Part shown: piece after piece, positions 17,656 through 61,834 of the stretch
Position numbering within the stretch: position 1 is the stretch's first letter
How the letters are laid out: the number at the start of each line of letters is the position of its first letter
The notes under the pieces: generated by a model
Told to the model about the DNA's origin: nothing
Databases searched by the model: none
The model's input: only the letters and a program-made list of their open reading frames with translations
DNA from: Tribonema minus
Taxonomy: Eukaryota > Sar > Xanthophyceae > Tribonematales > Tribonemataceae
Length of the DNA: 64,000 nucleotides
Assembly: GCA_017506865.1 (NCBI GenBank)
Contig: JAFCMP010000109.1
Location: forward strand, 185,304-249,303
Reading direction: 5' to 3'
Translations under genes and position numbers: made by a program

Positions 17656-20600
17656 ATGTTCCTCCGTTCCATCAACGCACTCCAGATCTTTGACGACAGC
17701 GACGACAATGACAGGTAACGATGCGGGCGGCGATGGCGCGCACGCTGACATGATCCAGAGCGGCGGCTGAGCGCATCTCAATTCGCATGGCCCACCGCCT
17801 GCCGGCATCATCCTTGCGGCGGCGAGGCGAGCTGCGCGGATCCCCTCTTGTTGCGTAATCATGTGCAGAGCGCGCGATGGGGACTGCGTCACGGGTTTGC
17901 GGCTCGGGCATTTTGCTGACCCCCTCTCTGGTGCTTGGGGGGCCGCTGAATGGCTGGTGTGCAAGCGCGCGGGATTCATCATGTCAAGCGGCCGCCGCCG
18001 CGCGCGTGACGGTTGATGACCGTAGTTTGTCGCGGTGGGGGCGGGTCAATTTGTGTCTACACGCGTGGTAATGTGGGGTTGTTGTAAGAACGGGTTTGGG
18101 GGGGAGAGGCGTAGGTGTCACTGGCACTGGCGCAGGCGCATACATTTAGAGTTGCAGATAGAGTATCAAGTTGTGCGGCTGACCAAGGTGGCCAGAGCTA
18201 CAGCACGGCGTGGCGCAGCGCTGCATACAAGCTTCAAGGTGGCGTGCGCTCCTTGCATGGCTCATGTGGCGTTGTCGAGGCCGATCCAATTGTACAAGAA
18301 CATTGTGGGTGGCAGCAGCCGTTGGAGAAAGCATTCGGCACGCACTGAGCACATGTGCGAGGGCTGAAGTGTGTGCGCTGGCACAAAAAAGCAGGTTGAG
18401 GCTAAAGTTGTCAGCTAACCTGCGTTGAGTTCATTGTTTCTGAGCGTGAGGTCTGCGCTACGCAATGCCAATGACACAGCGATGCAACTTTGGGCACCCA
18501 GCAAACCTGCTTTGTCATGTTGCTTTCAAGTTGAAACAATTGCTCTGCAGCTACCATTTTTGTGCACCTGGGTTTTGTTTTTGTGTTTCGCCTTCATTCT
18601 CTGTGTCAAATTTGTCATACTGTACTGAGCAAGAGCTCAGGGCTTTGGTGCTTGTTTATGTACCCAATTGTCAACTTCTTACCTCACCATCTGGTGACAC
18701 GCCTCCTAAACTTCAAACTTGAACCTGAACCTGAATCTGAAGCTTCACACAAAAGCACCAGCAGCAGATGCGCATGCTGCGTGGAGGTGGGCTCTTATTG
18801 ACAGGAGCGCTGCGGTTTGCCTCTGTGTCGAGCCTCGCTCACGTCTCTGGCGCGGGAAGCTGCAGAATGGCGAGCTCAGAAGCAGCGCGGATCACTCTGG
18901 TGGGAGGCGCCAGTTTGCAGGAATGCATATCTCGCGTAGCAGGCAAGCGCCTTTATTCCTTAAAAATGCCTGCGGCTGTTGCGACAGGTTCAAAGTGTGC
19001 AGGTTGCATGCAAGAATCCTGCAAGTTTGTTTCAAGATCCTTGAAGATCTTGTGGATCTATCTTGATCGGCGGGGTCGGCCAAGAACATGTGCATGCTTG
19101 TGGAAGCAGTCTTTGCTGATTACGAAATTTTTGATAATAGGCAGCCTTTCGCTGAGCAGCAGACGACATTGATCTTCTACCTGCTTCAAACTGGAACTTC
19201 AACTGGAACTGCCCGTCACCCCCGACCAAGCAAGATTGAGCATAATAGACCATACATTTTCCCACAGTTTGAAACTTATCGTCAGCAAGCGCCTTCACAC
19301 GGCTGACCACAAACTTCCCTGTTGTGTGCGTGCCCATTGGCCTTCGAGCATTGCCCTGCATGTCTTCCTGATGGGCCTGCAAGAACGATGCTTACGATGA
19401 CATCCCTGCTGCGTTCCATCCCGCCCACGACTGTCAGCCAACAAGTGTGTGTGGCTGACAGCTCGATGGAATATACTCAGGCACGTTTTGCTGAAAGCAG
19501 TTCAGTGGATGCGACACGCCGCGGGCAGCGCGTTGGACCGTGCACGCAAAGTGCTGCGTACGTTGCGTCTCTGCTGGTACTTCATACAACGTGTGGGGTA
19601 GGAAGTAGTGCTCTGAGTGGCGGGCTGACTTAGACGTACGCATACCGCAAATGCAAGCGGCCGACGACAACATGCTCTACATAAGTTTTTTCGAGAATCA
19701 AAGCGGGAGATTGTGGCCATGCATGACTCCTGCTGCTCAGGCAGGGGCATGGGATCATGGCCGCCGTAAACGAAACAACGAAAGCTCAACACTCTCTGTC
19801 TGTACTGGTGGCAGTTGTTACCTCCTGCTGTCAAGTAAACATTATCCCTTCTCTGCATGTGAGCACACTCTGTGACGCTCAGCCTCTCCCACCGCCCTGC
19901 GCGCAGGCAGGTTCGGCGCGCGGACGGCGGAAGCCAGCGGCGCCCCCGCCGTCGTCGCCATCGAGAAGGAGGGACTGAGAGTGGACGAGCTGCAGCTGGG
20001 CAGCACCAGCGCTGACGCTGCGGCGGTGGAGGAGGAGCTGGGGAAGCGGATGGAGGCGCTGCTGAGCGTGAGCGCGCCCGCGCACGGGGGGGCGGCGGGG
20101 GGGGGGCCGCTGCGGCACCTGTGGCAGCCCGCCGTGCGCACGTACAGGTGAGCGCTGAACGCTGAGCGCTGATGCTTTGAGAAGCCGTCGTTTGTCCCAA
20201 GTAGCGGGGGGGGGGGGCGCTGCGGCACCTGTGGCAGCCCGCCGTGCGCACGTCCAGCTGAGCGCTGAACGCTGAGCGCTGATGCTTTGAGAAGCCGTCG
20301 TTTGTCCCAAGTAGGCAGCGTTCGCCCGCGCCAGCATGCATCACAGCACGTGGCTCACAATACAAGCAGTGCTGGGCGTGCGGCTTCACACGCACGTCAT
20401 CGCAGGCGGTCTTCTTCATGCTCATTCATCTGTCGCGCGGGCTGTTTTCTCGGTACTGACTGCCACACGCGTTCGCGCCTGGCATCAGGGAGGAGGTGGC
20501 GGTGGCGACGTATGCGGTGCAGCTGGCGAGCACCGTCGCGCGCGAGCTGCAGAAGGGCCTGGCCACGCGCACGGCGATGGCCAAGAACGACAAGAGCCCT

Positions 20601-23600
20601 GTCACGGTCGCCGACTTCACCGTGCAGGCAAGGCGATGTTGAGCATTCCAGCAGTTGCCGACTTGTGAAGCGGCCAGCGGTTTGTACTCTTGTACCCAGC
20701 GTAGAGAGCACCAAGCTCGGCTTGGACCCCAAGACGGGCCTGGTTGTGGCAGGGGGCGGGACCACGCACAACGGGGAACGGAAGATGCCGTGCAATGAGC
20801 CACGTCGTGCAGTGCTCATGGTCAGGTTGAAGTTATGGCTAGCGCCCGTGGCTGTTGTCACGCACCTCGCTCGGAGAGTGGCCGCCACACAGCACTTGTG
20901 GCACGTCACCAAGGGTTAGGGTCGGGGTTCAGGGGGATCGCCACACACAGAGCATCAACAGTCAATGAGGGCTTGTGTACCGGCACAGGGCAAATGAACT
21001 GCCGTACGCAACACCATACGCCGGCTGTAACCTCATCCACAGCCCGCATTCGCCGCGACCTCGCTGCACGTCTGTGCCTTCCGCTGACTGGCGTTCCGCG
21101 GACGCGGTGGTGCTCATCCCGCACAGGCCATCGTCCTCGGCGTCCTGCTGCGCTACTTCCCGGACGACGGCTTCATCGCGGAGGAGAGCAGCGCAGTGCT
21201 CAGCGAGGACCCCGCCACGCTCGCGGCGGTCGTCGACACGGTTCGACGCGCCATCAGCCCCGACTGCACGGCGGAGGTACGGCAATGTAGGCGAGAGTTG
21301 ATGTTTGACGTGGTGACATTGAAGTTAATATGTCAGGGAGGACCCCGCCACGCTCGCGGCGGTCGTCGACACCGTCCGGCGCGCCATCAGCCCCGACTGC
21401 ACGGCGGAGGTACGGCGACGCCGCGTGTAGGCGAGAGGTGATGTTTGATGTGGCGACATTGAAGTTGAATATGCACGTGGAGAGCAGCGCGGTGCTCAGG
21501 GAGGACCCCGCCACGCTGGCGGCGGTCGTCGATACCGTCCGGCGCGCCATCAGTCCGGACTGCACGGCGGAGGTGCGGTGTCGCGCTCTCATGCCGCCGC
21601 AAGCGAGAGTTGATGTTTGATAGTGGCAATCTTGAAGTGTATCGCCGGACAACGCGCCATCAACCCTGACTGCGCAGCGAAAGTGTATGGCGATGCCCTC
21701 TTGTGCCCCACACGAAGGATTACTGTCCGGACTTTTGCAATCTTCAAGATTTACCTCAATATGCGTTTATACATAATGTAATGTACCTAATGCATGAAGC
21801 ACACACACCAAGTACAGTAGTGTCGCCACCAGTGCTGTCTACTGGTACGATGGTGTGATGTCCACATCTGATGGCTAATTTCTGATTGATTCCTGCCACT
21901 TGTGAATGCGCCGCGCAGGCCAACGCATCTCCGCACCACCATCACCTCTGTGTTGCGTGAACCACACACTCCTCTCGCTGTGACGCGCACTTGAATTCCG
22001 GCACGATGCTTGAGCGCTGCTGCTACTGCTGCTGCTGCTGCTGCTGACTCCCTCCCCCCCCCCCTGCCGCGCGTTCGTGGCACCGGCGCAGGACGTGTGC
22101 GCCTGGATCGATCTGGGCGCGCGCGGCGGCAAGGGGGGTGCGAGCGACCGCACATGGGTGTTGGACCCAATAGACGGCACCAAAGGCAAGCTCAACTGTA
22201 CACGCTACCCGCTCGCCTGCGTGCTGATGTAAGAGCTTGAATGAAAGTGATGACATTGGTTGGCGGATTGATTGTTTGATTAATTGAGAGTCATGGCTCT
22301 GTTCCAAAACTGAGCTTCGCACGCGCATGGATTACGGCGATGCGTCTGCGGGCTAGCGTGAGGGTGAAGTGAGCAGAGTTGAACTTGAAGTTCAATGTCA
22401 AGAAGGCTCAGCGCTCCACAGCGACCCACCATACTTACCAGGTGACAGGGCAGGCGCTGCTGACACATGCGCTTCAATCCTTCTGTCGTCGTCGCACTGA
22501 CGCACATGCAAACGCTGCGAACGCGCCAGACCCACCGGAAGTCACGGCACGCAGCAGTACACAAGTTTTAGTTCATATCAAACTGGCAAGCCATGATGGG
22601 TTGCCGCACTGAGATACGTGCAAAAGCTGCGAGCGCGCCAGACCCACTGAAGGCACCGCACACGCGGCAGTGCACGAGTTGAAGTTCATCCGCATCTGTC
22701 AAGCTGCGCTGCACGTCGCGCACTGCGCCGCTGGTACCGCTGTTGGCTGCAGCGCTGATAACCCCTCATCCTCAACTGGCAGCTTGCAGTACAGTGGCAC
22801 CGGCTCATGCGGCCGCGACCTGCCACTGCCAGCCGCGCGGCAGCGGCGCGCCGCATTCGGCTACGTGGCAGACAGCGCTCACCCCCAGCCGGCGGCTCTT
22901 ACTACAGCGGTAACGACTCATATGGCCGCAACCCGCCACCGCCAGCCCCAGCTGCAGCAGCCGCCGCCCCGTGTCAGCGGCAACGCATTTGGTCGCTCGG
23001 CTCAGCCGCAGCCAGCATTGTCTGGGGCCGGCGGCCACAATCACAGTGGCAACAAGTTCTGGGGTTGCGGGATGCAGCCGCAGCAGCTGAACCCGGCGGC
23101 AGCAGCAACGGCGGCGGCGACAAGGCTGGCTGCAGCTGAGCCGAGCGAAAAAATGTGTTGGTGTTGACACGGGGGGCGGCGGCTGTGGCTGGGGCTGACT
23201 GTGGCAGGTTGCGACCATATGAGCTGTTACCGCTGTAGTGAGAACCGCCGGCTGGGGGCGAGTGAAGTACCAGGGGTCAACAGGGGTCGACCCCTTGCTC
23301 TGTGCAGTGCCGCTCTCTCGCTCCCCCCCTCTCCAGGCTGCCTGCGGCGAGAGCGATTCTGCCGCGCTGCTGCCGCAGTAAACAAGTTCAAGTTATGTTC
23401 CATCTGTCCAACTCTTAAGTGGCGCAACGCGCCAGCGCATGTCACACAACTACATGTCGCGCACCGCGCTCACCCCCCCCCCCGCGCCGCCGCCACTCCC
23501 CCCCCCCTCCCCCCCCCAGGCTTCATTCGGCAGGAGCAGTTCTGCTGCGCGCTGGGCATGCTGGAGGGGGGGAAGGCGGTGCTGGGGGTGCTGGGGTGCC

Positions 23601-26600
23601 CGGTACTGCCCGCGGACCTCGATAAGCCGGAGGACAGCCAGCGCGGGCAGGTATATATATATTTGATCGTCCGAGTCTTTGAGTCTTCGATCTGAGTCTT
23701 TGAGTCTTCGAGAGGACTGCCTGCGGACCACAACAAGCACGAGCACAGCCAGCGTGGGCAGGTATTTGGATCTGAGTCTTTGAGTCTCTTAGATCTGAGT
23801 ATTTGAGTCCTCAATCTGAGGCCCGGTACTGCCCGCGGAGCTCGACAAGCCCGAGGACAGCCAGCGCGGACAGGTGGTTATTCGGTTGTCTGAGTCTTTG
23901 AGTCTTCGATCTGAGTCTTTGAGTCTTCAATCTGAGCCCGTGAACTGGCCTCACACCGTAACTTGAAGACCGAAGCGCGCAGCAAGACGCCGCGCACGCT
24001 GCACACGGGCGCTACGAGAGGCGCGTGCGCGCCGGCGCCGGTTGTCCATGGCGTCACAACGACGCCGTGCCACGACACATGCTGATCACACGACGCCAGC
24101 GGCACCATGTGGCGACTGCACAGAAAGTGAACCCTTGTCATGAAGCCGCCAGCGCTGAGTACTTCCCCACCCCCCCCCTCCGCCTGCCCCCCTGCCGCCA
24201 CGTGACGACCGTGTGACACCAGCGTCACCGTGGTTTGACTGCACATGTAGTGAAAGCTATCCATGAAGCCGCCAGCGCTGACCACTCCCCCCCCCCCCCC
24301 CCCCCCCCCGCCTGCCCCCCTGCCCCCCTCCGTCACGCGACCAAAGCAATTGATGAAGCCGGCAGCGCTGAGTACTGCCCCCCCCCCCCCTACCCTGCCG
24401 CCGCCGCCGCTGCGCCGCGCAGCTGCTGTTTGCATGTGGCGACTGCACATGTAGTGAAAGCTAGTAGAGCTGCCAGCGCTGACTCCCCCGCCCCCCCCCC
24501 CCCCCCCCCCCGCGCGCGCGCCGCCGCTGCTGCTACCGCTGCGCCACGCAGCTGCTGTTTGCGGCGCGCGGCGGCGGCGCGTTTCGCCGCTCCATGGGCG
24601 CGCCCGGCGGCGACGCGGCGCCGATCCGCACCAGCGGCGCCGCACGCGCGCGCGACGGCGTCGTGCTGGAGAGCGCGGAGGCGGCGCACAGCAGCCACGG
24701 CGTCGCCGCGGAGGTGTGCGCGGACCTCCAGATTTCCAGGTGCGGACCCTAAACCCAGCCCTAACTTCTGACCCTAGCCCGTGCGCCAACGCCATGTCCT
24801 GGCCCTAGCCCTTGCGTCGGCTGATTGCGGCAAACCTTACGATCTCCGGCGTGTGCCTGCTGTAGTGACTGCGTGCTCGGCACGCGCGGGCAGGGAAGGG
24901 TGGCTGATGTTCCTGAGAGTCATTTCGTGTGCCATATTGCCACGGCGCCGCCGCGGAGGTGCGCGCGGACCTCAATATATCCAGGTGCTAACCCTAACCC
25001 TAGCCCTACACTCTGAGCTTCTGACCGTTGCGTCAACGCCACCTGATTGCGGCAAACCTGGCAATCTCCCGCGTGCGCCGCGCGTGCTGCTGTAGCGACT
25101 GCGTGCTCGGCACGCACGAGCACAGAAGGGCGGCAAACATCCGCGAGCGTCTACTGACGTGCCATAAGTACGCCGCAGATTTGGAGTCTGGTGTACCTAC
25201 GCGAAGCGTTGAACCTGCAGCGGCAGGCGCAGCCTGAGCTGAGCCGACTTGCGGTGCAAGCTTTGCAGTGGCGGTGGTCACTGCTCACAAGAAGCTGCAT
25301 GTTTCCAGTTGACCATCAGTGATGTTTATGGTGATACTTGTACTTGTCGACTCAAAAGTTTGGGTCTCTGCATTTGCTTCATCGTACTTGTCTTGTGCCA
25401 CATGGCGGCGTCATCCAGGCACGTAAACTGGCGGAGCGCTGCCTTGGTCGTATTGTGCGGGGTGACGTGCCGCACACCATGGACGCATACTTCAACGTAC
25501 ACGAAGCAAGCGACTGGCACGCCTGCGGCAATCAATTGCACTTGAAGTGTGCACGACAAGTGGAGCGTCACCCTTGAACACCACGCCATGCCTGCCGCGT
25601 GCGGCTGATGAGCCACACATATACCTGAGTGATTCGGGTGTGTATGTTTTGTATTTCTCTTAGTGAGTTGAGTGATTTGGGTGTGTATGCTTTGTATTTC
25701 CCTTAGTGAGTTGCTGCAGCGCTGCACAAGTACGGCAATACTTTGAAGTATGCAAGGTGGCGATTGCCGCATGAATGGTCTTATTTTCGCTGTGCTTTGC
25801 CTATCTCAGGCTCGACAACATGATAACATCTCTGCTTTTTGGCGTGAATGTATGTCAACGACATAGCTGCCACCATCCAACAATGGGGTCTTGACCCGTC
25901 CTGTTTGGCGCCACATGCCTTTTTGTACTTCGAAGTATTGTATTTCTCTGAGTGAGTTTATGCAGCGCTGAACAAGCAAGGCAATCCATTCTCTTTGGCG
26001 CCACAGGCCGCCCATCAGGATGGACAGCCAGTGCAAGTACGGCTGCCTCGCGGCGGGGCAGGGAAGCATATACCTGCGAATGCCCAGGTGAGCCCGCGGC
26101 GAAAGCTCGAAATCCATGAGCGGTGCTGCCATTTGTCTGTTCCCGTGCTCTACTGTATGAGCGGTATCTCAGCCTTGGGCACACGCCGCGCCTGTGCTCC
26201 GCGCTTGGGATCGAAGTTATGAGGGAAAGCCTGTATGTGAGGTCACTGGCTACCTGCGTTCAAAAGAAGCATGGCCAGGCAGTACGAGTACCACCTACTT
26301 GGGCCAGTTCAAAGCGCTCCTTTCTCAAGCATGCTACTGTATGGCGCCGTCATCATATCGCCTCCCCTCAACTCACCCCCCCCCGCCCCAAGGCGCTGTC
26401 CCCGTGCGCGGCACCATGTGGCGGCCTACGAGGACTCGAGCGCACCGCTGTCGTCAACGGTCAGCCACCCACGCGCGCGCGCAGCACCAACCACTGACAC
26501 CTGCCATCACGCACTCTCCACGCTTCGCGCCACGCGCAGGTGGGGCTATCGGGAGAACATCTGGGACCACGTGGGGGGCGCGGTGGTCATAGAGGAGGCG

Positions 26601-28569
26601 GGGGGGCGCGTGAGCGACAGCATGGGGGGCGAGCTAGACTTCTCGCAGGGCGCCAAGCTGCCGCCGCACGTCGCGGGCATCGTCGCCACCAGCGGGTACG
26701 TGCGTGCGCACGCTGCTGAGCGTTGTTGACAGACATGGCGGCAGAGGCTCTGTTGCCGCATGATGGCCCCCTTCGGCGTGTGTGCGCTGTCGGCGATGTG
26801 TGTGTGTCGACGCTGTGTGTGTGCATCATGTATACGCTTCCTGCCCACCGCTGTGGGTCTAGAACATGACTATATAAACACTAGAGCCTTCACAAGAGGT
26901 GCGCCGGTTGCGTCATGACGACCTCCGCTACCCCGCACACCGCCCCTGCCCCCCCCCCCCAGGCCAATTCACGACGAGGTGATAGCGGCGGTGCGGCGGC
27001 GCCTCGGCCGTGACTTTGTGGCAGCGCTCAAGGCTGCGCCGGACGCCGCCACATGGAAGGGCCTGGGGCCCGGCGCCGGGGACGTGACGGAGGCGGCACG
27101 CGGCGACGGCACGCCGGTGAGAACTCACTGCTGTGCGGTGAGAAACGCTTGTATCGCTGATCTTGTCCGTGAGGGGAGGGCAGCACGGTGGGATGCAGGT
27201 TTACGGTTGGGGACATTTACGGTTGGGGACAGGTATGCGATTGCAAGCCCCGCACGGACCTCGCCGCCACGCGGCAAGACAAGCTTTCAGTTCTCAGGCA
27301 GGCGGTCCTCGTGTTTTGTTGCCGCTGATCACGCGCGCGAGCAGACGGCAGCGCAGTGGGGGGCAAGGTAGCTACTGTATGTGTGACCGCCATGTGCAGC
27401 GGTTGCAGGCAGCGTGCAGCCCCGCTGCGCTGCGCTGCGTTAGCGGGTCGGCGGATGCGCGTAGCCCTGGATGGGGGCGCAGTGGCTAGACCTAACCCCT
27501 TTTTCAACCGCAGGCAGCGGAACTACCTACAAGTTCGGGCAAGATGGGTGGGGCGGCGCCTGTGAGTGCCAGGCACGGGGCGGGGCGGCACGTGTTGACA
27601 TGGAGAGATACGTGGCGGCAAATGCCGCGACAGTGACGGCCCACACCAAGAGGGAAACCGCAGTGTGCATCCTGCGGATTTATAGGGGCTGGCCTATCGC
27701 GTTCAAGGTCCACTTCACGGACGGCTCCAAGGGCGGGCTCTAGGTCAACTCAATGACGCATCTGGGGGCTTCCCTGCTAGATCCGCCCACTTCCTGTCAG
27801 CGAGTGAACAACAGCAGCCGCTGACAGGACTGGGCAACGGCAGCCGCTGACAGGAAGTGGGCGGATCTAGCAGAGCAGCCCCAGATGCTTCATGGAGTTA
27901 ACCTGAAGCCAGCCCATGGAGCCGTCCGTGAAGCGGACCTTGAATGAGATAGGCTTGCCCCGGTAAATCCGCAGGATGCGAAGGGGCTTCAGTGTCAAAC
28001 GACCAGCGCGGGTCTCACCCCGTCCCCTGACGCCCCCCCTGTACATACATACCCCCCCTTCCCGTGGCACCCCCCCCCCCCCCTCTACATACACTCTCAG
28101 AGGCTAAAAAGGGGGAAGGGGCCCAGGTTGCGGTCTCACTCTAACCGCATCAGCAGCTCAACGCCTGCGCAGCGCGCACCGCTGCATCTGACATGCAGCA
28201 CACCCGCTCTCATTTTCGCATGGTGCGCAGGACGCGATGCGCGTGACGCTCGTGTGCGAGTGCGCGGCGGCGCAGCGGGAGGGCGCGCAGGCGGCGCTGG
28301 CGCGCGCTGCTGCCTCGGCGGTGGCGCCGCACGGGTACCCGTGGGCGGTGTGCTGGCGGGAGGGGGGCGAGGGGGGGGGGGGCGCGCGGCCGCGCGTATC
28401 TGGGGGGTCGTGTGATCTCCGAGTTCGCATTGAGCGAAGAGGGGGTTGCGCAGGGTGTAGACGAGTTGAAGTTTGTGCTCGGCGGGTGACGGGGAGGCGT
28501 CGCAAGATTCAACAGCGGCGAAGCGATTTACAGCTTCATGACAGTGGTGCGAGTCGCTGGCTCTCTTGA
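17656..28569 (+). CDS. SAL1: 3'(2'),5'-bisphosphate nucleotidase, HAL2/SAL1 family
   Basis: The enzyme hydrolyses 3'-phosphoadenosine 5'-phosphate (PAP) to AMP, detoxifying a sulfotransferase by-product. It is a Mg-dependent, lithium-sensitive member of the inositol monophosphatase fold. Phase-consistent exons are 19911-20147, 20489-20627, 21127-21276, 22092-22185, 23520-23650, 24552-24739, 26007-26087, 26540-26695 and 26963-27116. Motifs in order are NDKSPVTVADF, FPDDGFIAEESS, DPIDGTKGF (split by an intron), EQFCCAL, LESAEAAHSSHG, PPIRMDSQCKYGCLA, YLRMP and WDHVGGAVVIEEAGG, so all metal-binding acidic residues are present. The 20627 and 22185 junctions require GC-AG introns. A candidate start exon at 17656-17714 (MFLRSINAL) joins in phase but is weak. 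Past the usual C-terminus, exons 27514-27561 and 28231-28569 remain in phase 0 and may form a C-terminal extension. The ~80-residue exon at 19911-20147 (KEGLRVDELQLG) is not part of the usual domain. Family call is very confident; the ends are not. Confidence 0.92.
20101..20314 (+). repeat. Duplicated exon end plus donor, 110-bp period
   Basis: The end of the exon at 19911-20147 (LRHLWQPAVRTYR), its CAG|GTGAGC donor and about 57 bases of intron are repeated 110 bases downstream. The second copy reads CAGCTGAGC, so its donor is destroyed by one G-to-C change. Near-identity elsewhere indicates a young duplication. Confidence 0.95.
21205..21697 (+). repeat. Exon end plus donor repeated 3-4 times
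   Basis: The last ~72 bases of the exon at 21127-21276 (EDPATLAAVVDTVRRAIS...), with donor and proximal intron, recur at about 21338 and 21500, and a decayed remnant lies at 21646-21697. Copies 2 and 3 keep GCGGAG|GTRCGG donors. Copy 3 also begins about 20 bases earlier in the exon (ESSAVL), so copy boundaries differ. Confidence 0.95.
22882..23258. repeat. Long inverted repeat in a nucleotidase intron
   Basis: The arm at 22882-22975 (containing 'ccagccggcggctcttac' and 'cagcggtaacgactcatat') is matched in reverse complement by 23166-23258. The arms are about 93 bases each and I estimate 85% match by eye, with roughly 190 bases between. In RNA this would form a large hairpin inside the intron between the exons ending 22185 and starting 23520. 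Confidence 0.85.
23606..23935 (+). repeat. Exon end plus donor in three copies, with a GAGTCTT minisatellite
   Basis: The end of the exon at 23520-23650 (PADLDKPEDSQRGQ|GT) recurs with donors at 23762 and 23874, periods 111 and 112. The bases between copies are a minisatellite of units like 'gagtctttgagtcttcga'. Copy 2 is diverged; copy 3 is close to the original. Confidence 0.93.
24700..25130 (+). repeat. Exon end plus donor duplicated, 245-bp period
   Basis: The end of the exon at 24552-24739 (VAAEVCADLQISR|GTGCGG) recurs at about 24947-24984 as a similar coding string followed by GTGCTA. The duplicated unit extends through CCCTAA-like bases and a segment 'ctgattgcggcaaacct' seen near 24831 and 25050. 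Confidence 0.9.
25627..26010 (+). repeat. Intron repeats reaching the acceptor of the exon at 26007
   Basis: The unit 'gggtgtgtatg.tttgtatttc' with 'ttagtgagttg' occurs twice near 25637-25710, and a related piece, 'ttgtatttctctgagtgag', lies near 25938. The acceptor context 'tttggcgccacag' at 25994-26006 has a decoy at about 25901-25913 in which the terminal AG is AT. Confidence 0.8.
27660..27980. repeat. Inverted repeat whose arms both encode an FTDGS peptide
   Basis: The plus arm, about 27674-27801, and the minus arm, about 27980-27845, are imperfect reverse complements flanking a short 'cagccgctgacagg' repeat. Both translate outward-in to ILRIYRGxPIxFKVxFTDGS. The plus arm has a stop soon after (KGGL*); the minus arm continues GWLQVNS. 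It lies in the likely intron between 27561 and 28231. It may be a fragment of a mobile element or a duplicated gene piece. Confidence 0.8.
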
Positions 28570-29799
28570 CGGCATGGGGCTATGAGCGTGGTTTGCAGTT
28601 GCTTTGATGGCAATGTTCGCGCTGCCCGCTGACGTTGTATTTTAATCACAAAAGCTCATTACATCACGTGGGCGAAGACTCGCCAAGCGCAGACCAAGTT
28701 TGTCACTGTAAAAGCATGTGTGCCAGCTCTGTGGCCTCAAATCTGCACCTTTTAGGGCGCAAGCTCTGCCAGTCATAGGCACGGCAGTGCATCATTTCCT
28801 GTTTGGCTACCATGGTCATGGCTCAATGGCAACGACAGCAATGGCAGTGCGCGTTCGAGGTTGACAACACACAACAGCATGGCATTAGCAAACAGTAGCA
28901 CTGTCGTCGACAAAATTTCGTTGGTTTAAAGTGCATTGCTGTGAAAGTCATGCATCACGTGGGCGAAGACTCGCCAAGCGCAGACCAAGTTTGTCACTGT
29001 AAAAGCATGTGTGCCAGCTCTGTGGCCTCAAATCTGCACCATTTAGGGCGCAAGCTCTGCCAGTCATAGGCACGACAGTGCATCATTTTCTGTTTGGCTA
29101 CCATGGTCGTGGCTCAATGGCAACGACAGCAATGGCAGTGCGCGTTCGAGGTTGACAACACACAACAGCATGGCATTAACAAAGAGTAGCACTGTCGTCG
29201 ACAAAATTTCTTTGGTATAAAGTGCATTGCTGTGAAAGTCAACGTCTGACAGTTGTCAACATACTCTCCATAGGGTGTACAGGGGGCAAAAAGGAGGACG
29301 GGAGGAGATGGGCCCGGCGGACAATTCAGCAAGAGGATTGCTGAATGACATCGGTTGTCTGAGGGCTCCTTCAACAATAAATCACTGCGGGGAACTGGGG
29401 GAACCAGGCGATGCAGCACCCGCGCGCGGCGTTTCGGCCTGCAGTAACCGCCGCCGCCGCCGTTTCCGCCGCCGCCGCCACCACTGCGCCGCCAGCATCG
29501 CGAGCGGCGCTGCGAACGCGGCGGCAATGTGCCACCGCCGTCCGTCAAATACAACTTCTCCAAATGCCCAGTCTAAGCGTGGCGACGTGTAGTGGGCGCG
29601 GCGCGCGTTGCGAAGCTCCCAATGCGCCTGGGGGCGCAGGGCGGGGGGGGAACGGGTGGGGGGGGCTGTAAGACGCGGGGGAGGGGGGGGGTACAAGGGG
29701 ATTCGAGACAGGCACTACTGCGTCGTGTTTGCATCTCACACCATTCATGTCCTTCTCCATCTGATGGACGTAATGTATATATTGCAGCAGCACGGACCA
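28570..29799. other. Convergent intergenic region with a 291-bp tandem duplication
   Basis: This lies between the likely 3' end of the nucleotidase gene (plus) and the likely 3' end of the PDI-like gene (minus). No supported coding sequence was seen. The region is dominated by a two-copy repeat at 28662-29241. Confidence 0.6.
28662..29241. repeat. 291-bp direct tandem duplication
   Basis: The unit starting 'catcacgtgggcgaagac' at 28662 restarts at 28953 and ends near 29241 with 'agtgcattgctgtgaaagtc'. Only a handful of substitutions separate the copies, so it is recent. Confidence 0.95.
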
Positions 29800-32700
29800 T
29801 CAGTACGGGCTGTGCGAAAGCTTGCCCGCAGACAGCGCACAGCACGCGGATGTGCGGACGTGATCCTGATCGACTTGGGTGATCGTCATCGGTGCAACAT
29901 ATGCTGTGATCGCTGCTGCCATTGACGCCTCTGTCGTCCCCCCCCCCCCCTTGGCATGGACTGCGCGTGCCCCGCAGCGCGGCAAGCGTAAGCCAACGCG
30001 CGCTGCCTGAAAAAAGCCCCAACGACACGTGCGTACAGGAGCAGGCGCTGGCCAGGCAGCACGCGCCTGTCAGTGCTGGGGCGTTGTTGTATACATGCAT
30101 GTTGTATGCCGCACATGCGAGATGGCAAGCGCTGCTGCGCTTGCGCGTCCATCGCTGCGGTCCAGCAATGAACTGCGTCTCACTGTGCTATCAATTCGTG
30201 GTGGCCCTCGCCCCGCTTCGCAAGAGCCGCACGTAGAGCATGTTGCACACACGCCGCTCGCACATGAAAAAACTGCCACTGAATGGGTGCATGTGCGGCA
30301 AGCGTTGCCTCACCTGCGCGTCCGCGCTGTCCCCACCAGCTCTAGTCTACACGTTAACGACCCAGCAGTTGACCGCAACGCGCCGTCCGCCATCGATCTG
30401 CGGTCGCGCTCGCTGCCGCATCACGCGAGCTCCCGCTCCTGTCAACACGACTGGCTGCACGTCGCAAAGGCTACGCGCGGCGCAGCGATGTTTCACCTGT
30501 GTTTCTGCTGCCGCCAGCAGCTCGTCGCGTGCCGCGTACAGCGCGTCCATGCCCTGCCAGTCGGGCACCGCCAGCGTGGCACGGTCGAAGCTGCTTTGCT
30601 GCAGGGCGCGGCGGAGCACGGCGTGGGGAAGGCGGGGAGTGCAGAGATGGTCGTGTCAGCGCTTCCATTTCATGCTTTCAATGCGTCTGCGTGTGACGCA
30701 AGAAGTTTGACGTACACCAAAGCGTGCATGTAATAAGCAGTATGTGGAATGTGTGCATGAGCTCATTCGTGTGAGTAGGCTTCATGAACGCATGATGGGG
30801 GGTAGGTATCTATTCGTAAACATATACACAACACTCATGCATAGATCACAAGTACTGTGGGATTCTGGAGGCATTCCGAGCGTACAGCTTCTGTACGCCT
30901 TTATGGATGCATACGTCACAATTACTGGAGTAATGTCAAGTGTGAAGCTGTTTTGTAGGCCTTGATACGTTAGGGTCAGGGCTAGGGTTAGGTTAGTGTT
31001 AGGGTTAGCGCCGCGAACCCCGACAAGTCCTTGTACCCTCTGCGTCCACCTCATTTTCATGGAAAGCTCCATTTGTGCTTTCAAATCAGGGGCCTTGGCT
31101 CCAGCTTCGATGCAACAGCGCGCCTGGTCTGAGCGTGCGCTCGGACTCCAACCCCTTCCCGCCGCCTCGTTTTACAGCGCACACTTCAGCGTGAAAAAGG
31201 AAGTATTCCGGCAGTGAAAGAAGTTCCCGCGCATGCGGCTTGTGACTCGACGCGCGTGCACAGGAGACCTCACGATTCAACTTCCAGTACGCCACGCTAA
31301 GACTTCAACTTTGGCATGTCATCGAGCGCCGCAGCCGCTGCGTACGCGCCGCCATCGCCCAGACAACAAACGCGCACGCGTCCCGTGCTGCTGCCTGGGC
31401 TCCGGCAGCGCGGGATGTGCACAAGGCTTGTTGCACGGGCAGAATTTCAGCTTCGGTCTTAACCTCAACTTCCACGAGGTAAGCACCACCTGGATGACGA
31501 CCCCGAGGACGTCTTCGAACACCCGCGACGCGTCCTCCCAGGACGGCGCGGGTTGCAATATTTAAACATTTGACCTGTACTCAACAAAACTTTAACTCCA
31601 GTACACACAAACTGCAACTTAGTGGGCGCGTCACCTGTACGATGAAGCCGAGCATGTCCTCGAAGCCCAGCGCGTCCTCCCAGTACGGCGCGGGCTCCGG
31701 CAGCGAGGCGTCGGCGTACGGCTTGCCGCGTGCAGGGAACCACAGCACCGCCGGGTACGCATCTACGCGCACCGACGCGGGCAGGTCGTTGGCGGTGCCG
31801 TCCACATAGGCGATGAGAACGCGCGACTCGGAGGCGAGCGCGTGCGCGAGCACCGCCAGCTCCACGCGCAGCGCCCTGGGGGGGGGGGGAGGGCTCGCAA
31901 TCAGCGCTACAGCTTATGTACACAAGTTGCGCCGTACCGCGCGCAGCCAGTGGGGGGGGCGTGCGTGGGCGGGGGGGGGGGGGGGGGGGGGGGCTCATGA
32001 GCACTACAGCTCATGTACATAGGTGGGCAAGTTGCGCCATAACGCGCGCAGCCAGCGGAGCGCATCATCTCGGCCGCGGTTGCCCGTTGTGGGTTCCATC
32101 TGAGCTCGCGGCGCTGCGTATCGCCGACAGCTTCAGCCGCGCCGCGCTGCGCAGCCGCTCTCCACGCTTCCGCAAAAACATGCGGCTCCTGGACATGGTG
32201 CAACTTCAACTGCACAGATTCCGCGGCGGCGACGCACCTGCTCGCCGCGCACCTCGGCGACACCACCGCGACCAGCGCGTCGCGCCCCGCGCGCGCGACC
32301 TCCGCCGCAAAGCTCAACCCCACGAGCCGCGCAACGTCGCCCCCTTCGCCCTTCCCCTGCCCCTGAAGGCCCCCTCCCCCTGCGCGCGGCGGCGGGAGCG
32401 GCTCCGACCGCGGCGTCGGCCGCACCGCGCCGCTGAGCACTGCCGCCGCCCACTCCATGACGTCGGTGGCGGTTACGGCAGTTACGGCAGTTACGGGCGC
32501 TGACGGCGGCGGCGCGGGCATGTGGTAGCGCAGGCCTGATTCGCGGTCGTGTGCGACGATGGCGGCGGCGGCGCGGCGCCGCGCCGTGGTGTCGACGCCG
32601 TAGGCGCGCGCCGCCTGCGCGTGCACGTGCGTGTGTGTGTGGATTGTGGCAAGCAAAGGAGCCGCTCTAGATGAGGTCGCGGAGCACTGGGGTGGTGAGG

Positions 32701-33690: not shown

Positions 33691-33723
<33 letters not shown>

Positions 33724-38041: not shown

Positions 38042-38971
38042 TCAGCACAGTGTGCCGGGCCACGATAACGAACGCGCCTGCGCGTGCAGTGCGAGGCGCC
38101 GTGCGCTCCTGCCACTGTGAATTGCAATCGCACCCTCGGTGTGCGAGCCGTTGCTGCTGCTGCTGCTGCAGCAAATCCCCATGCTGCAGGCCTGGCGGCC
38201 GTCGCCGCCGTGAGCGGTGCTCGCCACGTCATGCGCCGCCGACGCGGTGGTCAGCTCCACCAACTCGGCAGCGCTGCTGCCGCCTGAACATTGATGCCAG
38301 TCCGTGCTGTCGCTGCTGCCGCCGTCTCCCCCGTACGGGTGCGCGCCTGCGGAGTCATCCAGCTCGTCGTCCTCCGCGCTCATCTGCGTAGATGACGTGT
38401 GCGGTCCTGTCGCCGCACACGAGCGCGTATCGCTGGCAGGGCTGACCACTGAGTTGTGGCTGCTGCTGCAGCCGCTGCCGCCGCCGCTGCGCCAGTAGCC
38501 GCCGCCGCAGCTGCCGCGGGCCGGGCCAGTGCCGCCCTTAGCGCCGCTGCTGCCGTAAGCCTTTGTGGTTGGCACTGAAGGCGGCGGCCGCACTGGGTGG
38601 CTGTGCTGCCACCACCGCCACCCCCACGCGCCGCTGTGCCCCCCGCTGCCCCCCGTATCACAGCGTGCGCCGAACGACGGGTCAAGGGTCCGGCGCCGCG
38701 GCGGTCTGTTCGCCTTCGCTTTCATCAGCCAACTGGTATGCGCATGCTCGTAAAGATTCGGTGGGCTGGCAAACAGGAGGTCGGTGTCTTTTTGAGATGC
38801 AGTGCTGCTCGCTGGCTCTGTAAGCTGTCGGCTGCGGGAGGTGGAGGAGGTGGGGGGCGCCATGAGGATCGGCTCCGTGCTTGTCGCAGAACGAGGCCAT
38901 CCCTGTAAACTACCCGGCGGCAGCCAGGGATACACCTCCTCTGGAAGTGGTGCACCCTCCTTGTGCCGGGA
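38042..38971 (-). CDS. Hypothetical low-complexity protein exon
   Basis: Family not recognised. A minus-strand open frame of 310 codons begins after a plausible acceptor (GATTGCAG). It opens with a normal-looking segment, EEVYPWLPPGSLQGWP, and continues Ser/Gly-rich with an acidic patch, SAEDDELDDS. It may contain an internal donor; the upstream exon is unknown. It is divergent from the TTC29 gene that starts at 39644. The opposite strand is also open in places, so coding on this strand is only moderately supported. Confidence 0.4.
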   Translation of the reverse strand, partial: SRHKEGAPLPEEVYPWLPPGSLQGWPRSATSTEPILMAPPTSSTSRSRQLTEPASSTASQKDTDLLFASPPNLYEHAHTSWLMKAKANRPPRRRTLDPSFGARCDTGGSGGHSGAWGWRWWQHSHPVRPPPSVPTTKAYGSSGAKGGTGPARGSCGGGYWRSGGGSGCSSSHNSVVSPASDTRSCAATGPHTSSTQMSAEDDELDDSAGAHPYGGDGGSSDSTDWHQCSGGSSAAELVELTTASAAHDVASTAHGGDGRQACSMGICCSSSSSNGSHTEGAIAIHSGRSARRLALHAQARSLSWPGTLC

Positions 38972-39643
38972 CTGCAATCGGCGAGAGCGCAGTGCAAGAT
39001 GAGTAAAGCCCGAGCAGCCTCGGCTTTATTGGAGCTTGAAGTGCCTGCTGGCTGGACAAAGAGAGAGAGAGCAATGCGCGCGGCTTGGCGTTGTCCGACA
39101 CAGTGCAATCCAACGAGTTTTAGATGGAGGACAGGCACTTTCACTCTCGCGGGTCACACACAGGCAATGCAAAGCCTACGAACATGAGGGGATAAGCACC
39201 AGCAGCAATCCGAGCAGGAACGCGGCAAATCCGTCAATACTACTGCATTCTGTCTGGGTAAGTCGAGCGATGGTAGTTCTTACCCCTTGTCTGCTCCCTC
39301 TCATGATGAGCAACGTCGAGCACCGCGGTGTGTGTCTCCGCGTGATCTGTGTAGTGTACGCAACTATGTGATTGCGTGTCTCCGTCTCCCCGCCGATAAA
39401 CAGGCCCGCCGCTGCTCCTTACGCTCTGCAGTCGATATGAGACATCCCAACCTCACTACATGCGTAAATCTTGATCGGTACCGCGCCCATTGCCCGCTCA
39501 CAAACAACTTTGGGCATGCCAGCCCATGAAGATCTCGTGAAAGGGTCAGTGGCGTCACGTGAATTCACGTCGTAACGGTTTGCAACCGCCTGTGAATCCA
39601 TCGCGTGAATGCTAGAAGAACAGACACACCTCGCGATCGTGCA
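38972..39643. other. Intergenic region between divergent genes
   Basis: This is likely the promoter and 5' UTR of TTC29, possibly shared with the minus-strand hypothetical gene. No clear TATA or other element was identified. Confidence 0.4.
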
Positions 39644-42600
39644 ATGGCTTCCCGAGGAGCATTGCTAAGTCATTCAAGCAGCGGTGGAAGTGGCGTACAG
39701 GGAGGCAGCGGGGGCGGCAGCAGCAGGAGAGGCAAGGGGCACAGTAAAAATGCAAACCTCAGAGCGATCGATGAGATGCAGGCGGTGGCGACGGGGGCCA
39801 TTGCAGCAAGACCTGCAATGCCTCCACGTAAAGCTAAGCTCAGAAATAAGGCGATGCGGTCAGAGGCAAGTGACCGAGCTGTAGTTCTCGATTGATGCAC
39901 TCTTGAAGTTCATCGTGCTGCCGTGAAATTTGACACCAGTGTGTATTGTGATGGAGCGCATACGCGCGCAAGCCGACTTGACCATATGTAGAGTTGAAGC
40001 AGCTGATTTGGTCCTATTTGCCTTTGACCCTCGACTTTCAAAAATCATCCTGAGTGTGAATAATACTGGGCCCAGCGAGTGATGGTCAGCGTTCAACATG
40101 CAGTGTGCATCGCTGTAGATGTCGACGCCGTGGCCACCTCTTGTAACCTGCAACATCTCCATGAGGAGGCCAGTGGCTTGCAGTGCACAGCCCATGAACC
40201 CAACTATGCATCGCACGGCAAGTGTATCCTGAGTGTGGTGGGCGACTGAGTCACAGCAGCAGATATGTGTATGGGGGTGGGTGGGGGCGCAGCACCCTCA
40301 TGTGGTCGCAGGACCACGTGCACAGCCCCCAAACGCATTGCAGACTCTGCAGTTTGCAGCGCTGGCGCAAGCGCGCTCCCGCGCTAACAGGAGCCCCCTC
40401 ACACAGCTCCTCATGCCTTACACAACTCAGTGCACAGCACCTGAACTTGCCAGAACACGAGAGAACGTGCCACAGAACCCGCAAGGGGACACCCATCAAT
40501 TCCCGCCGAATTCCACACACGCTCTACGCGCTCACTCCATCACTCGCGCGCGCAATGATGTCTGAGCGCTGCTGCAGGACGCGGCCGCGGGCGGCAGCGG
40601 CAGCGCGCACGCGCAACAGCGGCTCGACCGGCGCTCGCTGTGCGAGGCCATCCTAGTCGGCGGCCACGTGCAGTCGTTCATCGACTTCTTCTACCTCACG
40701 CACAGGCCGGCGCCCGTGCAAGGTGAGTGTGAGTTTCCTCAATGCTCGATGACTGTTGCGCATGCGGCGCAGCCTACATATCATGTTCCGGTGCGCAGTC
40801 CACATGCGCTCATTCGTGTAAAGTACCAAAAACAAATCGGGAGCGCATGCGGGGCCTGAGGCGGCGGGCGAGAGTGGCCGCGCACGCGCGCCGCCTGCGG
40901 AGGCCGCCGCGCCATGTCAGCAGTTGGCTGCCTCTGCAAACTCTTCAACAGCGGCCGTTGGTTGGACACAATGTTGCCGCACGTTGCCCGTGGACGCTGC
41001 CATGCAGCGGAAAGGCTGCACAGCTCTCACGTGCGCACAGTCCATGTCGGCCGGTGACGCACCGCCTTGTTGGTATGATTGTTCTCCCATCGATGCGCTC
41101 ACAACTTCAAGTGGGCGCGCACAGCACCCCCTCCACTGCTGACGCACCTCATACTCTTTCTTTGCACGGTACCTCAATTAGCGCGCCCAAGTCTGCGCTA
41201 GCGCACACACGTTCAAATGACGCGCTGACACTTGAAGATGAAGGCGCCAGCGCCGCGTGCCGACGGCGGAGATGGCGCAGCCCCCATCAATTGCTGATGC
41301 ACGATTTTCCACTTGGTACCTCACCTCAGTGAGCTCACAGTTTGAAGTGTGGTGACTCGCCCCGGGGGCCACAGACCCGTCAGGGCGGACGTGCCGCCCT
41401 CTGATATCGTCTGGTTAACTGCCCAGCACCCGCTGACACAGTTCTGCAGTCGGAATCTCGCACATCGAGGCGCACTCACAAGTTCAAGCGTAGTGACTCT
41501 CCCCGAGCGCCGCGCGCGGACGACACGGCCAGCGCACAAGACGCACTCGCAAACTCACACTTTTGCGCACAAGTTCAAGTGTGGTGACTCCCCCCGCGCG
41601 CGCCGCGCGCAGACGAGACGGCCAGCGCCGACGCGCCGCCGGCGGAGATTGTCGTGCCGGCGGAGGAGATGGCATTCATGCGCGCACGGCTCGAGGGCGC
41701 GGAGGACGGGCGCCAGTCGGGCGACACGGCCGCCATCTACGCGGGCTACAACGCGCTGGCCAAGTACTTCCAGGTGACTCTCCGCCGCGGCGCCTGTTCT
41801 TCATGTTGAGTACGGCACCGCGGCGATCTATGCGGGCTACGACGCGCTGGCCAAGCACTTCCAGGTGACGCTCCGCGGCGCCGGTCCTTCGAGAGGGTCT
41901 ACGGCGCGTCGCAGCGCGGTGCGGTTTGGGGGGGTAGTGCGAGGCGACCGGGAAGGCAGGGGCGCCGTGCCTAGCACACACTCTGGGTTGTCTCTGTGCT
42001 GCGCCTGTTTTTTGACGAGGATGTGCGGCGCGTAGCGGCGTGATGCGGTTTTCGGTGAGGTGCGCGAGGCGACCGGGAAGGCGCGCTTCGACGTGCATTT
42101 GGGAGGTGTGCAGCCAGGGGACCGGGAAGGCAGGGGCGCCGATGAGAGCACACGCGCGCCGAGGCGTACCGCACACTTGCGCGGGGTGCCTGGGTACCTG
42201 CCTGCCGCACTACTGCAGCTCATCACACGACAAGGGGTGACGCACCCGTCGAGCGCTGCCGCAAGCTCGTCATTGCGATGCCTGCGTGTGCGAGACTCGC
42301 GCTGCCCCTAACCCTACCCCTGACCCTGCCCCAGACCCTAATTCTGACCCCGAGCCTCGCCGATGCCCCCGCGCGCGTGCAGCACACACGCCAACCGTAA
42401 CGCTCAGGCTCACTTTTTACCGCCGCATCGCCGACTCACAGGACTTGTGCGCCCCTGATCCACACCCCAACGCACATCCTATAGCCCTGCGTCAGACCCT
42501 AGCCAGCCCTGCCCCGATCCCTCGACGCCGCGCGCAGGCCTCGCGCGACCCGTGCACCAACCCTAACCCCAACTCTAACCCTAACCTGCGCCGCCGCCGC

Positions 42601-45600
42601 GCGCAGGACTCACTCGACCTGCAGACCGTTTCAACCCTACCCCCAACCCTAGCCTAGCCCTTACCCTAAACCCCTGCGCCGCCGCCGCGCACAGGACTCG
42701 CATGACCCGTGCACAAACGCTGACCCTCACCCTACCCTTACCCCTAACCCTGACCCTGACCCTACCCCTAACCCTACCCTAACCTGAACCTAACGGTCCT
42801 AGCCCTAACCCTAGCCCTCGCCGCCGCCGCCGCCGCCGCGCGCAGGACTCGCGCGACCCGCGCACCGGCGTCTACTTCTACGAGAAGTGCCTGGAGGTCG
42901 CGCGCGTGACGCACGACAGGCGCGGCGAGATGGCCGCCAACCGCAGCCTCGGCGCCGCGTTCGACCGCATGGGCGACGCCGCCGCGGCCGCCGCGTACCA
43001 CGAGCGCCATCAGGTGCGACGTGGCACGCTGCTTGCGTGCCACGTAGTACTGCACGAACTTTGCGCCCGCGCACGGAAACAGGCATTCGCTGAAAGATTT
43101 CCGCACGCCGCCCCCGCTGCCGCGTACCATGAGCGGCGTCAGGTGCGCATGTGGAACGTGCATGCACTTTTGTGCTCGCGGCGCATGCGCATGTGTCGAC
43201 ACGCGGTCTGCTCGTACCCATGCGCGCGCGGCCGCCGCGTGCCACGAGCCGCCACCAGGTGCGGCGCGCGCGCGCTGCAGTCGCGGTGTACGAGGCGCGC
43301 ACACGATGTGTGCAGCGTGGTGGTGCATGCGCATGCGCAATGTGATGATGCGCGCCACGAGCGGCACCAGGCATTCACGCATGCACGAACGTGTCCCCGT
43401 GTGTGCGCGCTGCGCTTGAGTGAGTGGCTGTGCTGGCGCGCACGCGAGGTGAGCGCGCAGCTGCATGCTGTAGAGCGAGAGAACGGTGTGCCAGGTACCT
43501 TTCAGCTCTAAGTCCGTCAAAGTAGGAAAACCAGCGGCAGTACCTTTGCGTCACCGCATGTGAGAGCACAAAAAATCGGAGTATAAGGTCTGATCTGCTG
43601 CTGCAAAGACGTATCGTGCACAGACCGCCATTACCCGCATGAGAACATGAACAACTGCAGGGGGTCTGGTCTGTTGGGCTGATGCAGAGGTACATCGTGG
43701 CTTACATTCACTCATGAGCAGAGAGACGAGAGGGTGCAGGGCTGTCCTCGCGCCGCCGCCGAATGCCACGACGACAACCAAAACCAACAAGCACACAAGA
43801 TCATGAGCTTCACCCATCATATTTCTGCTTAGCGACGCGATCAATCAAGACTCTGCTCTGTCTGACGCGATCACGTGCCGCCGCAGGAGCTGGCTGCGGC
43901 GGAAGACGGCGACGCCGAGGCACGCGCCGCAGCGGCGGAGCTCGTGGGCGTGTACCGCAAGTGCGCTGAGGGCAAGGTGAGGAGCGCTGCCACGAACGGA
44001 GCTGAAGTTGAACTAGGGTTAGCCCCGACCTCAAAGCGTAGCGGCGCTCCTGCTACTGTCAGGAAAGCTGGAAGCGGAGTTTTGGTTAGTGTTCAACTAG
44101 GGTCAGCCCCACCCCAAACCCTAGCCATGCTCCTGCATGTGTGGAAAAGGGGCGCTGGCACACGCGGGCACTGCCGCCGATGCCACACACAGAGTATGCG
44201 GGCGCGTCTGAGTGCGAATCGAGTGGCGGCTTGTCCGGCCGGCGCTGCACATAGCGTGTGCAAGCATCCCGATATGCCATTACAAACTCAGATGGCGACA
44301 CTCCGCAAGCAGCAGCGCTCAGGTGCATTCTGAGCTGACTTGCCCTGGAGCGTGCACTGCGACCCGCGTCGTTGAGGAACCAGCAGTCACTGTGCGAGCT
44401 CTCGCACTCCGTAGCGTACGGTTGCCTCGACTATAAGTTGACTCATGGGACACGGCGGTACGCCAGCAGCAGCCGCCGTGTGACAGAGACCTTACACAGT
44501 CCATCTCTCAACAAGGATGCATTGCCCCCCTATGCCTCCAGATCGCCATTCTGTCAAATGTGCACCTGAGTTCACATTGGCCCGTCATATTGTGCACATG
44601 TCCAACACGCATCGCCCTGGCACGTTGTGCATGCCTACTAGCCACTGTTCTGCTTTACATTGCGAGGCGTTCATGATCCGCAATACGCATCAAGCACGGC
44701 TCCACTCGCGTACACTGAGCACTGCACTGGGCAATTTACCCTGAGCTCAGGTGCCTTGCTTGGGGGGGGGGCGGGAGGGGGGGGGGGGTGAGGCGGTTTC
44801 GTTCAGCTGATGGAGCGTCATGTACCTTTGCAACAGAACATGAATACCTATTGGTAAGGGGTGGCCTGATCTTCTGGGCTCTCTGTGCTGCCGTGAGCGG
44901 AAACATTGCGCTAAACATACCCGTTTGTGTTGTCAACTTCAAGTATACCGCACCTTGCCCCCTGTTCCCCCTGCCGCAGGAGGCGAGCGGCGACTACCGC
45001 GGCGCAATAGAGCTGTGGCAGAAGTCGGTGCAGGCGGCGCGCACGGCGCACGACCGGCGCGCAGAGGGCCAGGCATGCTACAGGTGACCTCGCGAGTCAA
45101 TGTAAATCTCTCGCTTGAGGGAGCTTGACTCAGTACACGTCGTGCAGTCGGAGATGGCTGTGGCAGTCCGGCTCTGATCGAGCAGATGAGGCCGGGGTGT
45201 TTGTGCATGGCCGTTGCGCAGCCAGTGGCGCTGCGCGATGCTATAGCGCCGTGTCACAACGCTCAGCAGCTGCATCGTTGATCCCCGGGATACCAGCAGG
45301 CGAAGAGAACGGCATGCTCCTCGCCCGATGTACAATGGCGCCGAGAGATGGGTCAGGCGCTCAGACACCTGACCCTCACCTCAACCCTCATCCTGTAATT
45401 AAGCCCTGACCCGCTGGTAACCCATGAACGTGCTGCAGCGAGGCGCGCCACAGCTCTCACTCGCAGCGCTTCTACTTGGAGCTGGAGTCATTGCCCTCGT
45501 AGCGTACGTCGCTAGCAGCCGTGGTGCCTTCGGTGCCAGTCGCCGATGCGAGGTGCGCGCCAACGCAGGCCGTGTGCGCGCGACAGACGTCCCATGGATC

Positions 45601-61799: not shown

Positions 61800-61834
<35 letters not shown>

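Follow-up and report, generated by a model that had tools for sequence, protein, structure and literature searches.

Decaying tandem copies of exon ends in the introns of the alga Tribonema minus, more often at donors than at acceptors

The window analysed here, a 64,000-nucleotide stretch of Tribonema minus contig JAFCMP010000109.1, encodes a nucleotidase, a PDI-like protein and TTC29, and in all three genes the 3′ ends of exons recur, together with their 5′ splice sites, inside the intron that follows (Table 1). An earlier note, made from the window alone, had listed seven such donor-spanning cases in these genes, and all seven are present. The copy at 20147 is 97.2% identical to its source at an offset of 110, and the GT of its decoy donor now reads CT. 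The PDI-like copy is the weakest of the seven, passing the exon-only test (score 51) but falling below the junction-spanning cut of 45. That list was nevertheless incomplete, since it overlooked two acceptor cases in TTC29 and one further donor case, a minus-strand exon whose copy matches at 53/58 positions on the exon side and 26/29 on the intron side, with GT intact. By eye, a ragged fourth copy can also be recognised near 21641, in the array that follows the exon ending at 21276. No structured RNA in the window matched Rfam at gathering score.

Table 1. Exon-edge copies in the window (positions are those of the window; offsets in bases)
Feature	Position	Strand	Copies
Nucleotidase exon	19907..20147	+	2 copies; 20097-20204 (last 51 exon bases, donor and intron head) repeated at 20207-20314
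Nucleotidase exon	21127..21276	+	3 copies, offsets 133 and 296; decoy ends 21409, 21572; GT intact in both
Nucleotidase exon	23520..23650	+	3 copies, offsets 111 and 223; decoy exon ends 23761, 23873; GT intact
Nucleotidase exon	24552..24739	+	2 copies; exon end and donor repeated at 24939-25134, offset 245; decoy end 24984, GT intact
PDI-like exon 31635-31875 with 3′-end copy 31487-31552	31487..31875	-	donor at 31635; offset 145, 77% identity; decoy GT intact
TTC29 exon	41613..41773	+	donor copy, offset 91; decoy end 41864, GT intact
TTC29 exon	42846..43013	+	donor copies, offsets 129 and 245; ends 43142, 43258
Exon 4284-4436	3811..4436	-	3′ end and donor repeated 226 bases downstream in transcription
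TTC29 exon start, acceptor side	41613	+	copy 41477-41535 (partner 41568-41628) in upstream intron, offset -93; AG now GG
TTC29 exon start, acceptor side	42846	+	three copies upstream, array 42496-42866, offsets -151, -239, -308; AG intact in 3/3

Homology identifies which copy is the true exon end in two of the genes. The spliced nucleotidase aligns to SAL1 (8f9y, E 1e-64) across the junctions at 21276, 23650 and 24739, the exon 23520..23650 being joined in that alignment to the exon that starts at 24552, while the junction at 20147 lies at the extreme edge of the alignment. The TTC29 product aligns to 8glv_Lf (E 3e-35) across 41773 and 43013. At these SAL1 and TTC29 junctions the first copies suffice and an extra intron is unnecessary. 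Use of the site lying closest across the exon holds there, and the proposal that the first copy is the real exon end is borne out wherever homology reaches. A protein query with one PDI-like exon returned no match, and at junctions beyond the homology-checked ones donor choice was inferred from coding potential.

In order to count these events beyond the three genes, a 334-kb sample comprising the window and 27 further loci was annotated with home-made ab initio gene models and curated by hand. The models were misled by some copies, and some predicted exons are themselves copies; raw overlap counts (61/224 donors, 37/230 acceptors) include false exons and were discarded. Curation removed 8 donor and 11 acceptor junctions (186 to 178 and 192 to 181), and with them 4 of 42 donor and 10 of 26 acceptor rows, because the exon turned out to be a copy or because the matching sequence fell within a coding repeat or another coding exon. 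After curation, a copy in the adjacent intron was found at 38/178 donors and 16/181 acceptors (Fisher p=0.001; locus sign-flip p 0.002); the uncurated contrast is smaller (42/186 and 25/192 at score 45). The donor bias that the earlier note described holds in this sample. Its further claim that duplications spare acceptors is not supported, as acceptor copies are common.

The donor excess is seen in 12/12 combinations of exon and score cuts (p 0.011 or less), with identical hand exclusions throughout. Counting on the exon side only gives 35 donor and 14 acceptor junctions with 16 junctions excluded by hand, although several rows, chiefly acceptor ones, resemble GC-repeat noise. The same queries run against unrelated introns reach a score of at least 45 in 0.05% of cases for donors (n=2040) and 0.24% for acceptors (n=2105), and a reversed-target control at a cut of 54 yields zero matches in every bin. 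In simulations on 68 introns lacking repeats, detection is about equal at the two ends (0.54 vs 0.52), and the ratio of detected donor to acceptor copies ranges from 0.71 to 1.12 across five decay settings. Copies on the other side of the exon, at a score of 45, number 11 for donors and 4 for acceptors; most of these are probably exons that are themselves copies. Nearest offsets span 91-299 for the 38 donors and 93-278 for the 16 acceptors. Events are clustered by locus (permutation p 0.0008) and co-occur on the same exons: among 161 exons with both ends tested, 26 carry donor copies only, 12 both, 4 acceptor copies only and 119 neither (OR 13.7). Exon-edge copies are real and present well beyond the window, and about one sampled exon in five carries decaying copies of its own 3′ end and splice signal in the next intron.

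The sequence differences between exons and their copies indicate how the copies age. For donors, mismatch rates at codon positions 1 to 3 are 0.100, 0.075 and 0.179, a pattern that fits a neutral copy with silent drift in the exon; the later copies, which the earlier note had called decaying, behave at donors like unselected DNA. The acceptor pattern is weaker (0.113, 0.085 and 0.133). The splice dinucleotide is intact in many spanning copies (GT in 59/72 donor, AG in 29/33 acceptor copies), and the intact decoys frequently equal or exceed the real site in score (37/61 donors, 15/28 acceptors). Because decoys are often as strong as real sites, position and not strength must decide between them.

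Exons and introns in the predicted models have median lengths of 142 (internal exons) and 559 bases, the combination of short exons and long flanking introns that is typical of exon definition. Exon definition is expected to fail for long exons, with a limit of 300 nt. Exons above 300 nt are nearly devoid of donor copies (1/47, against 37/131 for shorter exons; p 5e-5), as filtering by exon definition predicts, and this scarcity persists under permutation within loci (p 0.002) and within genes (p 0.005). For acceptors a length restriction is not clear, with 1 copy seen on long exons and 1.5 expected, and stratification leaves the test on the upstream intron weak (p 0.05 below 400 nt and 0.22 below 600 nt).

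The best reading of these data, and one we consider probable, is that frequent tandem duplications of 90-300 bp are filtered by splicing. Genes in this genome would gain such local duplications often, through a duplication process whose nature we infer, and those falling inside a coding exon would usually be harmful and lost. One that runs from an exon into the next intron would place within that intron the tail of the exon, another donor and the head of the intron, and could survive when splicing stays with the upstream donor, since the extra unit would then be removed whole as intron and decay without selection. If exon definition operates in this organism, the donor nearest the upstream acceptor would win. 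An acceptor duplication would be the mirror image, but its upstream acceptor would compete better and fewer would therefore survive. Over repeated rounds, arrays of at least two copies may accumulate and the intron may lengthen. Of the two explanations offered earlier, selection tolerating only this geometry fits best.

Splicing behaviour of this kind has been described in human data and minigenes, where long flanking introns lead to a preference for the upstream member of a pair of equal 5′ sites, strong-site minigenes use the upstream 5′ site exclusively, and the upstream preference at 3′ sites is significantly reduced under exon definition, leaving acceptors less clear-cut (PMC9225289). That work concerns alternative splicing in humans, whereas the duplications here are fixed, occur in an alga, and would disclose the rule only through their survivors. 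Against this asymmetry, the abstract of the same paper applies the cross-exon rule to 5′ and 3′ sites alike.

A uniform neutral duplication model predicts ratios to intron-internal clusters of 0.29-0.36 for donors and 0.31-0.43 for acceptors, while the clusters observed comprise 31 at donors, 14 at acceptors, 6 at both and 22 internal ones. Duplication or retention at exon edges therefore exceeds the uniform neutral expectation. This junction excess over intron-internal duplications and the clustering by locus lie outside what a splicing filter explains, and the former is compatible with mutation favouring exons. A mechanism favouring the exon-to-intron transition (R-loops, stalled forks at the step from GC-rich exon to intron, or donor priming), by which donors would be duplicated and not merely tolerated more often, could draw on that excess (about 4-6 fold for donors, 1.5-3 fold for acceptors), on the GC content of exons (0.722) relative to introns (0.576), and on the locus clustering and shared exons. 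We regard it as unlikely: acceptors too exceed expectation, and long exons have donors yet almost no donor copies. Nor was the suggestion of donor-primed or splice-intermediate duplication supported, as the exon-side part of the copies varies widely in length (15-100 nt, with the query capped at 100; quartiles 35-70), intron-only duplications show no 5′ bias (942 vs 1047 bases near the two ends), and significant intron-side homology extends beyond position 8 in 41/55 donor copies, which were thus not copied from spliced RNA. No sign of donors acting as breakpoints was seen in the sample.

Retention for function, as decoy splice sites, alternative exon ends or regulated intron retention, would account for the many intact dinucleotides and high-scoring decoys described above, but appears highly improbable. 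Among donor copies found by the exon side only, GT is intact in 42/55, and identity at +1/+2 (0.84/0.91) is similar to the value of about 0.85 for the final 20 bases of the exon-derived part. The codon-position mismatches fit a neutral copy, donor offsets show no frame preference (16:9:13), and homology at the tested junctions uses first copies only; a role as functional coding or alternative exons is likewise unsupported by the donor codon-position pattern and offsets. Comparably improbable is an artefact of assembly, gene prediction or detection. The gene finder is home-made, some of its exons are copies, and kinase matches of equal score on different contigs suggest uncollapsed haplotypes; against this, the exon parts of the copies diverge by about 12%, so that these are no assembly echoes, and the clean reversed-target control, balanced simulated detection and consistency across cuts speak for a real signal. 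The filtering of tandem duplications by splicing remains our preferred reading.

Searches of the 158-Mb assembly with three stretches of the window recovered just those stretches and their local copies, which speaks, for these stretches, against a dispersed mobile or introner-type element placing the same sequence in many unrelated introns. A separate query that is not itself a copied exon end (L018:5020-5140) matched a dispersed repeat over part of its length. Introners (PMC9860276) also multiply intron-linked sequence but insert copies into many genes, unlike the locally copied stretches tested here. Tandem duplications that include a splice site together with parts of its exon and intron are described for the potato RdRp gene (PMC4974935) and, as cited in other work, among internal gene duplications (Gao and Lynch 2009). 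In potato, the 3′ side of an intron and the 5′ side of the next exon were duplicated and a new intron arose there, whereas here the copies lie, in the homology-checked cases, inside an existing intron, affect 38/178 sampled donors and are biased to donors. The AGGT-segment model of intron creation similarly yields repeated splice signals by tandem duplication, but it duplicates an exonic AGGT and creates an intron, whereas the copies here repeat a junction that already exists and, at the homology-checked sites, add no intron. Judged by titles and abstract openings, none of the literature matches listed describes donor-biased exon-edge duplication.

How the spliceosome distinguishes a true site from an identical neighbour has long been asked, usually by means of minigenes. 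At about a fifth of the sampled donors the duplicated-site experiment seems to have been carried out by evolution, often with decoys equal in score, and the outcome suggests that the spliceosome stays with the site closest across the exon and passes over decoys of equal quality. More tentatively, introns in this lineage may grow by repeated absorption of tandem exon-edge copies, the surviving copies being a fossil record of how the spliceosome chooses its sites that would reveal cross-exon recognition in an alga, and thousands of duplicated-site natural experiments might then be expected genome-wide. The system makes it possible to test exon definition directly outside animals and supplies a concrete way for introns to lengthen.

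Local direct repeats were catalogued across the window, which forms the terminal 64 kb of a 249-kb contig (genome 158 Mb, 554 contigs), and the sequence was then inspected around seven donor cases named in an earlier note, in which the 3′ end of an exon, its GT and the head of the intron recur within the following intron. All seven are present in the nucleotidase, PDI-like and TTC29 genes, PDI being weaker. Aligned copies diverge by ~3 to 32%, and therefore are not assembly echoes. Homology supports the first copy as the real exon end in two genes. The nucleotidase protein built by splicing at first-copy junctions only matches the Inositol_P profile over almost its full length (5-267 of 271), and its alignment with SAL1 (E 1e-64) runs through the exon ends at 21276, 23650 and 24739 and has 20147 at its very edge. 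The TTC29 product matches 8glv_Lf (E 3e-35) and several chains named TTC29.

The wider sample comprised 20 stretches of 10 kb, 7 more and the window (334 kb, 0.2% of the genome). A purpose-written ab initio two-strand gene finder, trained on the same sample, predicted 41 genes with a median intron of 559, a median internal exon of 142, and CAG/GTGAG donor and GCAG/G acceptor signals; for annotated volvocine algae, median introns of 198-343 are reported (PMC8226300). Junctions of exons with a coding score of 8 or more were queried (60 exon and 30 intron bases) against 1500 bases on the intron side. At a score cut of 45, uncurated copies occur at 42/186 donors and 25/192 acceptors, while the same queries reach that score against unrelated introns in 0.05% of donor and 0.24% of acceptor trials. 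Hand curation, which took out coding repeats and exons that are themselves copies, left 38/178 donors vs 16/181 acceptors (p 0.001 by Fisher test and 0.002 by sign-flip over loci). The proposed preference for donors is real in this sample, as a bias and not as exclusivity. Among exons tested at both ends, 26 have donor copies only, 12 both, 4 acceptor copies only and 119 neither, and each of the 12 pairings of an exon cut with a score cut shows the bias, the hand exclusions being unchanged throughout. Detection does not account for it: when duplications were planted uniformly in 68 repeat-free introns and decayed with exons frozen, 54% were detected at donors and 52% at acceptors, with donor/acceptor ratios of 0.71-1.12 among detected events over five decay settings. 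A position scan gave 0.24-0.26 in the two bins at donors, 0.12-0.14 at acceptors, 0.10 in mid-intron and 0 for the reversed-target control.

Nearest copies lie at offsets of 91-299 (median 141) for donors and 93-278 (median 168) for acceptors, without frame preference. Homology extends past intron position 8 in 41/55 donor and 17/22 acceptor copies; therefore unspliced sequence was duplicated. Mismatches between donor exon and copy by codon position (0.100, 0.075, 0.179) are about twice as frequent at the third, which is what free drift of the copy, with drift of the exon confined to silent sites, would produce; the acceptor pattern is weaker (0.113, 0.085, 0.133). GT is kept in 42 of 55 donor copies found by exon alone, matching general decay, and 37/61 intact decoy donors and 15/28 intact decoy acceptors equal or exceed the true site in score.

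Both a donor-specific duplication mechanism and selection had been proposed as the source of the bias. Intron-only duplications are equally common near both ends (1047 bases near the 3′ vs 942 near the 5′ end) and exon-side extents are broad, both of which speak against an origin specific to donors. Of the two explanations, selection acting through the choice of splice site is the better supported. Human work (PMC9225289), whose abstract gives a cross-exon rule for both ends, reports a switch at an intron length of about 250 nt. Above that length, the upstream one of two equal donors is favoured, in strong-site minigenes exclusively, whereas preference for the upstream acceptor, the wrong site in the present algal duplications, is reduced. 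Applied here, these rules predict that donor copies are tolerated and acceptor copies less so, with failure in long exons. Donor copies occur at 1/47 exons over 300 nt vs 37/131 shorter ones, a shortage that persists within loci (p 0.002) and within genes (p 0.005). An upstream intron under 400 nt acts in the same direction (1/27 vs 31/113 otherwise), an effect that weakens on stratification, with p 0.05 for introns under 400 nt and p 0.22 for those under 600 nt. Median intron length after a donor copy is 1094 vs 651, a difference partly due to the copies themselves. Exon definition would be the step that explains copy survival.

Several results fit selection through splice-site choice poorly. 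Clusters in 154 introns number 31 donor, 14 acceptor, 6 both and 22 intron-internal (31, 15, 8 and 23 with the low-complexity filter off), and relative to internal clusters, both donor and acceptor ones are more frequent than uniform neutral duplication would give (~0.3-0.4 each). Part of this junction excess may stem from the merging of clusters, and exons, with a GC of 0.722 vs 0.576 in introns, may be more prone to duplication. Events are also clumped by locus (13/27 loci with tested junctions have none; donors p 0.0008), and donor and acceptor copies co-occur on the same exons (OR 13.7). In the small numbers of the 334-kb sample, exon length sets no clear limit on acceptor copies.

Other repeats and sequence features in the window and in two sampled loci outside it (L014, L018)
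Sequence	Position	Feature	Remarks
Window	22092-22187	Nucleotidase exon coding DPIDGTKG	Apparent GC donor, AAAG/GCAAGC; missed by gene finder
Window	~27640-28000	Long imperfect inverted repeat	Adjoins nucleotidase gene; seen by eye
Window	28651-29241	Tandem duplication, 300 bases, identity 96%	Block exceeds offset by 7 bases, which suggests microhomology
Window	30969-31008, 42302-42818	Interstitial telomere-like CCCTAA/TTAGGG tracts	Partly within TTC29 acceptor array
Window	61056-62502	Tandem duplication, 728 bases, identity 99.3%, offset 721	Close to contig end
L014	470-3486	Satellite-like array, periods ~330 and 1117 bases	Identity 95-99%
L018	5020-5140	Short dispersed repeat in part, mostly last 50 bases	29 further genome matches

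Elsewhere in the assembly, kinase matches recur with identical or almost identical scores and frame lengths in contigs C144, C223 and C278 and in C90 and C179, which suggests that haplotypes are uncollapsed or that segments were duplicated recently. With allelic copies, young exon-edge duplications could be dated.
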